A DNA stretch of 27,790 nt from a virus: positions 1 to 27,790 of the IMG/VR virus record IMGVR_UViG_3300012985_000021. The stretch is one strand, 5' to 3'. Under the pieces are notes generated by a model, which was given only the letters and a program-made list of their open reading frames with translations, did no database searches and had not been told where the DNA came from. Of the stretch, positions 14,002 through 20,577 are shown one piece after another (the first letter of the stretch is position 1; each line of letters opens with the position of its first letter). The position numbers were made by a program, and so were the translations under genes.

Positions 14002-14085
14002 AAACATATTGCACAATCCAACAATATTCCCTACATTTACATAAAACAAGGCTAGTAAAAATTAGGCTTATTAAATAAAAAGAAG

Positions 14086-14093
14086 TATATTTG
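14086..14093 (+). promoter_or_regulatory. Bacteroidetes -7 promoter element upstream of candidate RNA
   Basis: TATATTTG matches TAnnTTTG exactly. There is no TTG at the usual -33 spacing; instead ATTAGGCTTA (14061-14070) lies there, nearly identical to ATTAGGTTTA in front of the -7 element at 20848. A weaker tandem promoter (TTG 14009-14011, 20 nt, TACATTTA 14032-14039) lies upstream. Confidence 0.6.
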
Positions 14094-14099
14094 AATATC

Positions 14100-14202
14100 A
14101 ATAACAGCGAACGTCCACCGCTTGTAAAGTATAAGGTAACTTACCTTAAACAACCCGAATTATGACAGGAGTGGACGCCTTGATTATTTCGGGTTTCTTT
14201 TT
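14100..14202 (+). ncRNA. Candidate structured leader or small RNA with possible pseudoknot
   Basis: Three perfect pairings sit in about 85 bases: P1 CGTCCAC (14112-14118) / GTGGACG (14171-14177); P2 TAAGGTAACTTACCTTA (14132-14148, 8-bp dyad); and P3 AACCCGAA (14152-14159) / TTCGGGTT (14188-14195), followed by a T-rich run ending at 14202. P1 and P3 interlock as an H-type pseudoknot or alternate as switch states. P3 spans the HNH start codon at 14162, so it could control transcription or translation of that gene. Seen directly: the pairings and the -7 element. Inference: that the RNA exists and its function. Confidence 0.5.
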
Positions 14203-14665
14203 TACTATGATTTTGAACTACACAATTCAGGATTTAAAAAATTACATTGAGCTTATAGAAAACTATAATAATAAGTTTTTTAAGATAGATGTAAAAAACA
14301 TTCACGATTACAGAATATCTTTTGCAATACTTTGTGATGTTATTTTTGATGATAACATTGCCGAAAAAGCATTAAGTAGTTTGAATGTAGCAGAAAGGAA
14401 TAGTATTGTAATTGTTTCAGATAACAAGAGAAAAGAAGCGAACATTTATATTTCTAAAAAGAATATACGAAAAGAGGTTTTTAGGATTCACGGCAACAGT
14501 TGTTTAAAATGTGGTTCTAACTATAAATTATCTTTAGATCATATTATTCCAATTTGCAAAGGTGGCCAGAATTGCATAACAAATCTACAGCCGTTATGTA
14601 AAAATTGCAATTCAAGCAAAGGATCTAAAATTATTGATTACCGAAAAGCGTGTCACATGTATTAA
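14162..14665 (+). CDS. HNH endonuclease, probable homing endonuclease
   Basis: 167 residues from ATG 14162, whose GAATTATG context matches other starts here; ATG 14207 (MILNYTIQDL) would give 152 residues and lies beyond the hairpin, so the start is uncertain. The C-terminal HNH domain has zinc ligands C114-x-x-C117 and C146-x-x-C149, the L-D-H-I-I-P catalytic block with D126-H127, and N141 in the T-N-L-Q-P-L-C stretch. The N-terminal ~100 residues are not recognised and may give target recognition. It sits alone between the small-gene cluster and the primase, typical of a mobile freestanding homing endonuclease. A packaging-type HNH is an alternative but is usually next to terminase. Confidence 0.85.
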   Translation: MTGVDALIISGFFFTMILNYTIQDLKNYIELIENYNNKFFKIDVKNIHDYRISFAILCDVIFDDNIAEKALSSLNVAERNSIVIVSDNKRKEANIYISKKNIRKEVFRIHGNSCLKCGSNYKLSLDHIIPICKGGQNCITNLQPLCKNCNSSKGSKIIDYRKACHMY

Positions 14666-14817
14666 AAAACACCCTAATACATATTATATAAAAAACGATA
14701 TTTAGTAAAAAATCATTTTTTAAAATAAAAAAAGTAAAAAAATGTGTCATTGCGACACAAAAACATAAAATCTCAATGTTTTAAAGGGATTAAAGCGTGT
14801 CACATACCGTGTCACAT
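14645..14817 (+). other. Candidate replication origin: iterons and AT-rich stretch
   Basis: GTGTCACAT occurs three times (14650-14658, 14797-14805, 14809-14817), the first two within an identical 14-mer AAAGCGTGTCACAT, the last two 12 bases apart. A related inverted repeat TGTGTC/GACACA lies at 14743-14759. Between copies one and two is an almost pure A/T region (14661-14742) suited to strand opening. It abuts the primase-helicase gene, a usual place for a phage origin. The function is inferred. Confidence 0.45.
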
Positions 14818-14836
14818 CATTAAAAACATAATTATT

Positions 14837-17197
14837 ATGATCGCATTAGTATCTATTTTTAAGCTTATAACCGATGTAAACAATCCTTATCATAAGGATA
14901 TTAATTACGCTTTGGACAGAATAAAAAACGGAAATTCAAAAGACATGATTCTTAAGCTTAGAAAAATGAGCAAAGAAGATTATGATAAAAACAAAAAAAT
15001 ACTTCCTGTAGTTTGTTTTAATGGACAGTTTAAAACTAGATCAGATTCAAACATAATTGAACATTCTGGATTTATGATTTTAGATTTTGATAAGTTCGAT
15101 TCTGAAGAAGAAACTGTTATTTTTAAAAATTCAATTTGCTCAGACAAATATATTTTCGCTTGTTGGATTTCTCCAAGTGCAAAAGGAATTAAGGCTTTGG
15201 TAAAAATACCAAAAGAACCTAAGAATCATAAAGGATATTTTTGTTCTATTGAAAAATACTTTAATCATCCTAATTGGGATCAAAGCGGGAAAGATTTAAG
15301 CAGAACATGCTTTGAATCTTATGATCCTGAAATATTTATTAATCCTGATTCGGAGTTATGGACTGATTTGGAACAGCCAGAAATTGAAGAAATTGGAGTT
15401 TTTGAACCAATTGTTAGAATGACTTCGTCAAATCAAATAGTTGAGAATCTTCTAAAATGGTGGAGTGAAAAATATGGTTTCATAGAAGGAAAGAAAAATA
15501 CAAATCTTCATGTTTTAGCCTCTGCTTTTAATACTTTCGGAGTTACCAAGACTGATGCTGAATATGAGTGTTTAAAATTCAATACGGGCGGAAAAGAAGA
15601 AGAAATTTTAAAATTAGTTGCTTCTGCTTATAAAAGAACTAGCGAATTTAACACGAGAGCTTTTGAGGATACCGTAAAAAAAACACAAATAGAAAAGCTA
15701 ATAAGATCAGGTAAACCAAAAAAGGAAATACAAAACGAGTTTAAAGACATTGATCTGAATTTAATAAAAGATTCTTTGGATATTGACGAATTTTGGTTTT
15801 ATAATGACAAAGGGAAAATAAATTTATCTACGCATAGATTTAAATTCTGGCTGGAGCAAAATAATTTTTTTAAGTTCTACCCTTCGGATAGTTCAAGTAC
15901 TTTTACTTTTATAAAAAAGGAACAAAATTTACTTGAAGAAACTAATGACAAAAGAATTAAGGATTATGTTCTTAATAATATATTAAGCCGTGAGAATATT
16001 GGTTACGCTCCTTATGATTACATGGCATCAAATACCAGTTATTTTAAGAGTGAATTTTTATCAATGCTTGATACTACCAAAGTAAAAATAAAAGAAGATA
16101 CTTTAGAGGAATGTTTTTTATATTTCAAAAATTGCGTTGTTGAAGTAAAAAAAGATAAAGTTAAGCAATACGATTACTTAGATATTGATGGTTATGTTTG
16201 GAAAAGACAAATTATTGACAGGGATTTTGTAAAAGAAGATCATCATTCGGCTGTGTTCAGAAAATTCCTTTGGCTTATATCTGGAAAAGACGTAAGTAAA
16301 TATAATAGCTTTAAATCGGTTATAGGCTATTTGCTTCACTCATTCAAAACCTCAGCAAACAATAAAGCGATAATTTTCAATGATGAAACAATTTCAGAGA
16401 ATCCAAACGGAGGAAGTGGAAAAGGATTGTTTTGGAACGCTCTAAAAAACATGAAAAAACTTAGCAGAATTGACGGGAAGTCTTTTGAGTTTACAAAATC
16501 TTTTCCTTATCAGACAGTTTCAACAGATACTCAAATTTTGGTTTTTGATGATGTTAAAAAGAACTTCAATTTTGAATCATTATTTAGTTTGATTACTGAG
16601 GGAATAACATTAGAATACAAAGGACAGGACGCTATTTCTATTCCTGTAGAACAGTCTCCAAAAATATTGATAACTACAAATTATACAATTGGAGGTGTTG
16701 GTGGTTCTTTTGAAAGGAGAAAATTTGAAGTTGAAATGAGTTCTTATTTTAGCTATAAGCACACGCCTTTGGATGAATTTGGACATATGTTGTTTACTGA
16801 TTGGGATAGCAAAGAGTGGCTTAGATTTGACAACTTTATGATAAACTGTGTTCAATATTATTTGCAAAATGGATTAGTTAAACACGAATTTAATAATCTT
16901 GAAGTAAGAAAGTTTATAAAAGAAACGAGTTTTGAGTTTTACGAATGGTCACAAGATAGAGATAATTTACCGCATAATATTAGATTAGATAAATCTGAAT
17001 ACTTCCATAAGTTTATTGCAGAATATCAGGATTTTAAAAAATGGCTTACTCAAAAGAGATTTACTCAATGGTTAGAGGAGTATGGTAAATTTTACAATAT
17101 TGAATTTAATACTGGAAGAACTCACAGTATGAGATTTATTGAGTTTGTGGATAAAAACGAAAAACCAGAAGATATAGATAACGAAATTCCTTTTTAA
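14837..17197 (+). CDS. Primase-helicase: VirE_N/BT4734-type N terminus and SF3-like (DUF5906) ATPase
   Basis: 786 residues; start ATG 14837, since a TTG at 14744 would run through the iteron region. Residues 1-170 match the BT4734/VirE N-terminal family (LPVVCFNGQF, then HSGFMILDFDKFD with acidic residues that may be catalytic, and CWISPSAKGIKALVKI), linked to primase activity. The C-terminal half is a helicase ATPase: Walker A GGSGKG at 525-530 (K529), Walker B ILVFDDV with D571-D572, and an ILITTNYTIGG sensor-like stretch near 612. Together these should prime and unwind at the fork, using the host polymerase. No phage polymerase is present in the window. The candidate origin lies immediately upstream. 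Confidence 0.9.
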   Translation: MIALVSIFKLITDVNNPYHKDINYALDRIKNGNSKDMILKLRKMSKEDYDKNKKILPVVCFNGQFKTRSDSNIIEHSGFMILDFDKFDSEEETVIFKNSICSDKYIFACWISPSAKGIKALVKIPKEPKNHKGYFCSIEKYFNHPNWDQSGKDLSRTCFESYDPEIFINPDSELWTDLEQPEIEEIGVFEPIVRMTSSNQIVENLLKWWSEKYGFIEGKKNTNLHVLASAFNTFGVTKTDAEYECLKFNTGGKEEEILKLVASAYKRTSEFNTRAFEDTVKKTQIEKLIRSGKPKKEIQNEFKDIDLNLIKDSLDIDEFWFYNDKGKINLSTHRFKFWLEQNNFFKFYPSDSSSTFTFIKKEQNLLEETNDKRIKDYVLNNILSRENIGYAPYDYMASNTSYFKSEFLSMLDTTKVKIKEDTLEECFLYFKNCVVEVKKDKVKQYDYLDIDGYVWKRQIIDRDFVKEDHHSAVFRKFLWLISGKDVSKYNSFKSVIGYLLHSFKTSANNKAIIFNDETISENPNGGSGKGLFWNALKNMKKLSRIDGKSFEFTKSFPYQTVSTDTQILVFDDVKKNFNFESLFSLITEGITLEYKGQDAISIPVEQSPKILITTNYTIGGVGGSFERRKFEVEMSSYFSYKHTPLDEFGHMLFTDWDSKEWLRFDNFMINCVQYYLQNGLVKHEFNNLEVRKFIKETSFEFYEWSQDRDNLPHNIRLDKSEYFHKFIAEYQDFKKWLTQKRFTQWLEEYGKFYNIEFNTGRTHSMRFIEFVDKNEKPEDIDNEIPF

Positions 17198-20175: not shown

Positions 20176-20577
20176 ATGAAAACAATTGCAACAAAAAGAA
20201 TCGTAAAAGTACTAATTGACGAAAAACACAGAAAATCATTTCCGTTGTTTATGCTGGATTATGTAAATAATATTCCGGCAGAAGAAATTGTTAAAATGTC
20301 AAAAGGAATGAGATTAACAGATAGTGATCACGTAATAGCATCGCCGTATGTTTTCGATACATTAGTTTACAATTATCTGGAATACATTAAAAAGAGCGAA
20401 CCATACAGCTATGATATTGTTAAAAAAGCAAAAGTGATCGGAACCAGAAAAATAAAACAAAAATATTCTGCTGATTATTTCGAACTGTATTTTGATAATA
20501 ATATTTCGATGAAATGCCCAGAATATATTTTTAATTACTCAGCTAATAAAATGCCGACACTAAACCGCAACTATTGA
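20176..20577 (+). CDS. Protein of unknown function
   Basis: 133 residues. Beta-strands at the N terminus (TIATKRIVKVLIDE), a central helical stretch, and a basic C-terminal half (VKKAKVIGTRKIKQKYSADYFELYF). No family recognised. Preceded by a stable hairpin and a CCCTTAAAAACTTAAATTATG-type leader. Its stop is one base before the next start. Confidence 0.6.
   Translation: MKTIATKRIVKVLIDEKHRKSFPLFMLDYVNNIPAEEIVKMSKGMRLTDSDHVIASPYVFDTLVYNYLEYIKKSEPYSYDIVKKAKVIGTRKIKQKYSADYFELYFDNNISMKCPEYIFNYSANKMPTLNRNY

Follow-up and report, generated by a model that had tools for sequence, protein, structure and literature searches.

A recurrent kissing-loop leader RNA ahead of replication genes in Bacteroidetes phages, a candidate conditional terminator

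Features of the locus

The window analysed here, a stretch of 27,790 nucleotides of viral DNA (IMG/VR record IMGVR_UViG_3300012985_000021), carries on its plus strand a predicted structured RNA of ~100 bases with its own promoter and a terminator-like end, followed by two genes. An HNH endonuclease of 152 amino acids (14207-14665; Pfam HNH_5, 3.3e-10; HNH, 5.7e-10) is encoded between this leader and the gene for a primase or VirE-type replication protein with a BT4734-like N-terminal domain (14837-17197; PF08800, 3.2e-20). The spacer separating the two genes (14677-14837) is AT-rich, contains repeated GTGTCA/TGACAC-type motifs and may be what is left of a regulatory region or an origin.

An earlier note on this DNA had described three perfect pairings in an interlocking order, a perfect -7 promoter element and a T-rich run after the last stem, all of which are present. 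The -7 box, TATATTTG (14086-14093), matches in sequence the Bacteroidetes sigma-A type TAnnTTTG (consensus from PMC9723704); transcription is expected to start at ~14099-14101, and a box identical in type precedes nearly all homologous leaders (L031 lacks an exact one). The pairings join CGTCCAC (14112-14118) with GTGGACG (14171-14177) over 7 bp, and, over 8 bp each, TAAGGTAA (14132-14139) with TTACCTTA (14141-14148) and AACCCGAA (14152-14159) with TTCGGGTT (14188-14195); as a hairpin, the second comprises 5-6 pairs and a small loop, and the first and third together form a pseudoknot.

The fold contains elements that the earlier note did not mention: the helix of hairpin P1 (14106-14122; AGCG, 14106-14109, with CGCT, 14119-14122) and, within the terminator hairpin P3 (14152-14195; lower stem 14152-14162/14185-14195), an inner stem (AGG, 14167-14169, with CCU, 14178-14180) above an internal loop with tandem G.A (UGAC, 14163-14166; UGAU, 14181-14184). 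Since the AGCG/CGCT helix places the 5' strand of the 7-bp pairing in a hairpin loop, the interaction is a loop-loop kiss: the strand L1, CGUCCAC (14112-14118), lies in the P1 loop AACGUCCAC and is perfectly complementary to L3, GUGGACG (14171-14177), in the 8-base apical loop AGUGGACG of P3 (14170-14177). The GC-rich codons that had been taken as a sign of RNA structure are this kissing strand. The U-tract UCUUUUUU (14196-14203) of the presumed intrinsic terminator comes directly afterwards, so that P3 and U-tract together span 14152-14203, and in the homologues P3 likewise has a U-rich stretch behind it. A small hairpin, P2 (AAGGU/ACCUU; 14132-14148), does not belong to the core; it occurs mainly in the CGUCCAC subfamily described below and has no counterpart in L003, L050, L055 and the second copy in L048. 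The nested fold of the window is more stable than shuffled sequences (z = -2.8).

The start codon of the nuclease had been placed at 14162, inside the last hairpin. This assignment was rejected: the N-termini of four homologous nucleases align from ATG 14207, just past the terminator, and the start codon thus lies outside the hairpin, which leaves a switch of translation that operates through a start codon within it unsupported.

Close relatives of the leader

The CGUCCAC leader is found in seven further viral contigs (L002, L031, L048, L049, L050, L051 and L055). The underlying 16-base pattern search gave 14 matches, six of which lack a surrounding leader; L043, L044, L045, L047 and L052-L054 were discarded as unrelated. 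The covariation check in homologues that had been suggested earlier gave a positive result: in six aligned sequences of the subfamily, standard pairs make up 99.5% of pair cells, and both-sided changes occur in three P1 pairs and three pairs of the P3 lower stem (9 cells), a value that none of 500 shuffles reached. Three of the four P1 pairs are changed on both sides in homologues (GUAG/CUAC versus AGCG/CGCU). The kiss itself is invariant in the CGUCCAC subfamily and consequently shows no covariation within it. In L050 (573-656, minus strand) and L055 (570-653, plus strand), the stems and the linker differ from those of the window, yet AACGUCCAC and UAGGAGUGGACGCCUUGA are as in the window. Because the search pattern contained their kiss, its sharing is not independent evidence, and the common apical module is partly an effect of the pattern.

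Different genes lie behind these leaders: the HNH gene in the window, L002 and L031, a different HNH gene in L051, and genes for DnaD-like or small proteins, followed by replication genes, in L048, L049 and L055. Conversely, L003 carries the same nuclease as the window behind a different leader, whose P1 loop reads GUGAGACG and P3 loop CGUCUCAC, with GGA/GAA as internal loop, and a second leader in L048, with the kiss AGUCGCAG/CUGCGACU, lies ahead of a NUMOD4-HNH gene.

A wider class of kissing-loop leaders

A script was run over 80 viral loci surrounding the primase to find the architecture without a fixed pairing sequence. In many it turned up immediately before the primase, and reading the leaders added more: a promoter, P1 and a terminator whose apical loop kisses P1 recur in dozens of Bacteroidetes phage contigs. 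The sample consists of metagenomic contigs without hosts, the elemo phages excepted. The order is invariant (promoter, P1, terminator with P1-complementary loop, U-tract, start codon), P3 is followed at once by the U-tract in almost every version, and many leaders, though not all, have an internal loop that is GA-rich or resembles loop E. From the leader end to the start codon on the same strand it is usually 4 to ~35 nt, and the gene mostly belongs to a primase or replication operon.

The kiss comprises 6-9 bp and differs in sequence in more than 20 leaders, for example CCUUCAC/GUGAAGG (L212), CUCACUAC/GUAGUGAG (L215), GCUUCUCAC/GUGAGAAGC (L216), UGGUGG/CCACCA (L217 and kin), CUGGAAG/CUUCCAG (L219), AUGGAAG/CUUCCAU (L232), GAUACAG/CUGUAUC (L237), GGCUCAG/CUGAGCC (L247), AGUCCCAUU/AAUGGGACU (L248) and GCUCUGAC/GUCAGAGC (L252). 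Compensatory double changes separate the leaders of L216 and L231, which share 84% identity: two in the kiss (C-G to U-A; U-A to C-G) and one in P1 (G-C to C-G). The pairings are thus conserved both by compensatory change and through wholesale sequence replacement, and the best reading is that structure, not sequence, is conserved in the leader.

Among cultured phages, the Flavobacterium phage elemoE has a leader with the kiss GUGGAGG/CCUCCAC before its replication operon, on the minus strand of MT497078 at ~20243-20375; in elemoA-D, the promoter region is kept, the interior is different and the kiss is UGAGAGC/GCUCUCA, the leader of elemoA being that in L305. Comparison of L305-L308 with L293, all from elemo phages, reveals near-identical promoter regions and unrelated interiors with a 7-bp kiss in both, a pattern that suggests recombination at the leader.

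Two tests with custom scripts addressed chance. In the first, anchored at promoters in 2.66 Mb with both strands counted, a score of at least 25 was obtained at 34 of 2159 promoters and at 8 of 10,795 controls (dinucleotide-shuffled 150-base tails), corresponding to 1.6 expected; its thresholds, like those of the other scan scripts, were fixed after the first examples had been seen. The second and cleanest test selects leaders without using the kiss, by position alone (a promoter 92-160 bases before a gene and a simple terminator found). The terminator loop has a complement of at least 7 bases in its own 5' part in 11 of 22 such leaders, compared with 2% of swapped pairs; none of 20,000 permutations of own and swapped loops reached 11, the highest being 7. 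Among the 11 misses, several represent leaders of other classes or parsing errors of the script.

The earlier note had matched the element to no riboswitch class known to it, and Rfam likewise gave no match at the gathering score for the window and ten homologous loci (riboswitches, ribozymes, HEARO and C4 included) and nothing credible at E<=10, the best sub-threshold match having an E of 5.8. With the window or the CGUCCAC leader as query, no DNA similarity was found in phage and plasmid collections. A pattern scan of genome contigs gave 118 matches, all attributable to chance and for the most part GC-rich, and covariance model R1, which covers one subfamily alone, had no match in 395 Bacteroidia genomes; reverse-strand covariance-model matches that fell on the same leader were discarded as palindrome artefacts. 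Sequence-based family searches miss the leader RNA because almost nothing is kept but base pairing. The primase as query found few relatives in genomes, the best at 41% identity in a locus without the leader; the rarity of prophage relatives in the searched genomes hints at virulent phages.

The downstream genes

A primase homologue sits directly behind the leader in many phages and is the usual following gene in relatives. The link drawn in the earlier note to the HNH endonuclease as the regulated gene finds no support as a general rule: in other phages, leaders precede primase, helicase, DnaD-like and other early genes. The second leader of L216 lies ahead of a helicase gene, the leader of L214 ahead of the gene for a candidate recombination protein without a Pfam match, and those of L230 and L249 ahead of NUMOD4/HNH genes.

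Between leader and primase, nucleases of the kinds HNH_5, HNH and NUMOD4 with HNH_3 are found in different phages. The position directly after the leader is a recurrent insertion site for at least three kinds of endonuclease (window, 14207-14665; L051; L230; L249; L048, minus strand, 649-746). Several families of HNH and NUMOD4 genes seem to have entered between the leader and the replication gene. The most plausible view of the nuclease is that of an insertion exploiting the leader, with the HNH gene incidental to it.

Proposed mechanism and alternatives

As far as sequence features go, the locus has the layout of an intrinsic-terminator attenuator: the first gene is preceded by a promoter, a leader and a terminator-like hairpin that ends in a U-tract. 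In our estimate the chances are about even that the leader is a conditional terminator (attenuator) and, at the same time, the small-RNA leader of the phage replication operon; of the attenuator and the independent RNA of ~100 nt proposed earlier, either, and perhaps both, may be true. The proposed mechanism is as follows. A strong promoter would drive synthesis of ~100 nt that fold into P1 and the terminator hairpin P3. P1 would fold first and dock on the P3 loop as P3 emerges from the polymerase. Part of the transcripts would end at the U-tract, yielding a compact RNA of ~100 nt as by-product or second product, whereas read-through transcripts would express the replication genes (in the window the HNH nuclease, then the primase). 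The kiss would set the ratio of termination to read-through, and breaking or occupying it would shift this ratio. Termination, its regulation and the role of the kiss as control point are all inferred; the leader looks like an on/off control of phage replication, not an endonuclease switch.

The kiss leaves both arms of the P3 terminator unpaired by it and does not compete with them. Docking that helps termination is slightly favoured, both terminator arms being left free. Because of this lack of competition, no antiterminator is visible, and the minimum-energy folds of three leaders contain no mutually exclusive antiterminator hairpin. The lower stem of P3 alone looks sufficient as a terminator, which counts against a kiss-controlled attenuator. 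Action in cis is favoured by the position at gene starts, on one strand, and by the different kisses of two leaders in one phage (L216 and L048).

Alternatively, though this is unlikely, the main product may be the terminated RNA of ~100 nt, which would either address host or phage targets in trans or serve as an immunity-type RNA; the lock of 5' hairpin to terminator would then stabilise it, and the downstream gene would be expressed by leak or from elsewhere. The own promoter, own terminator and compact fold joining both ends fit this reading, and IsrK of prophage Gifsy-1, a C4-like RNA made as a short RNA and a long read-through mRNA from one promoter (PMC4825925), sets a precedent. However, the loops are mutually engaged and leave little free sequence for pairing in trans, no matching target lies within the window (complements of L1 or L3 occur there no more than by chance), the unrelated kiss sequences of different leaders indicate that there is no shared target, and the leaders lie right at gene starts, like cis elements.

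The kissing structure might also protect or time the 5' end of the read-through mRNA, as exonuclease barrier or RNase shield, with termination incidental. A ring-like 5' structure near the transcript start would suit such a role, as would the pseudoknot of a second leader class (see below), which exists in the read-through mRNA only; we nevertheless regard it as improbable, since a shield needs no U-tract and one is kept after P3 almost always.

That the leader is a riboswitch for a metabolite or an ion, of a class not yet described, is very unlikely. In favour of one are the pseudoknotted leader with an expression platform and a topology that may loosely resemble that of the ZTP riboswitch, but a ligand pocket would show some conserved nucleotides: beyond the promoter, only the pairing, the U-tract and, in a part of the leaders, internal loops rich in GA or similar to loop E are kept, which makes a small-molecule pocket unlikely, and Rfam gives no match. 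Similarly small is the probability of an origin-linked primer transcript beside the primase gene with a direct role in replication; its location where the replication module begins agrees with this, whereas leaders also precede helicase, candidate recombination protein and NUMOD4 nuclease genes, in some cases with two per phage, and a primer is not expected to have an intrinsic terminator. An HNH-specific device, be it for expression control of a homing endonuclease or as RNA partner of the nuclease, is the least probable and already largely refuted: a nuclease follows the leader in the window, L002, L003, L031, L051, L230, L249 and the second copy in L048, but the nucleases come from different families and many nuclease-free leaders have primase or other replication genes directly behind.

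Relation to known systems and other leader classes

The putative attenuator shares with those of the pT181/pIP501 type a 5' leader with hairpins, a terminator before a replication gene and kissing-loop contacts. Kissing attenuator hairpins are reported to need interior loops (PMC4878617), and the internal loop beneath the kissing loop in the window fits this requirement. It differs in that the kiss forms within one RNA and in that neither an antisense RNA nor an alternative antiterminator hairpin was found. ColE1 RNA I and RNA II form fully paired loop-loop helices of ~7 bp whose specificity varies freely and which lie close to a replication function; in contrast, the kiss of the leader is intramolecular, its carrier is a phage, not a plasmid, and no antisense gene is evident, the window having no second loop complement beyond chance. 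The CI RNA of satellite phage P4 is likewise a short RNA made with a long mRNA from one promoter before phage control or replication genes. Unlike P4 CI and C4-like RNAs, the leader class has no separate complementary target segment downstream, the partner of the kiss lying inside the short RNA itself, and no Rfam match; relatives of the window primase seem to be rare as prophages. HEARO and OMEGA RNAs are also structured RNAs beside an HNH gene, but the leader matches no Rfam model, and RNA and nuclease do not always occur together, many leaders being nuclease-free.

Two other arrangements were observed upstream of the primase. In a second leader class (L222, L223, L226, L229, L233, L243 and L280), a three-way-junction terminator-like hairpin, often with an GGAGGCAUCC arm, is present, and the loop of a second hairpin pairs over 9 bp (6 in L280) with a segment past the U-tract, just before the start codon, and covaries with it. 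This class thus pairs with a downstream segment, unlike the kissing class, and with the partner located after the U-tract it cannot act on first-passage termination. A third variant (L254, L255, L257, L258 and L262) has a complement of 13 bp, wobble in part, that joins the 5' end to the terminator loop; covariation in the L254-type alignment is weak, and this alignment was excluded from the main evidence.

Significance

The class of leaders recurrent before DNA-replication genes of Flavobacterium-type phages looks undescribed. A search by position plus pairing finds them before replication genes of many Bacteroidetes phages, cultured ones included, in which gene control is poorly known. The locus is moreover one at which nucleases of several families have settled, with a strong leader on one side and a replication gene on the other, and the leader's dozens of natural orthogonal kiss variants offer a clean system for the tuning of an intrinsic terminator by loop-loop contacts. 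A more far-reaching reading, which we consider rather unlikely, is that of a large leader class conserved in shape alone, in which transcription of the replication genes is gated by self-specific RNA-RNA recognition with a private kissing code for each leader, possibly sensing its own copies in trans; if true, Bacteroidetes phages would use an RNA to control copy number or superinfection.
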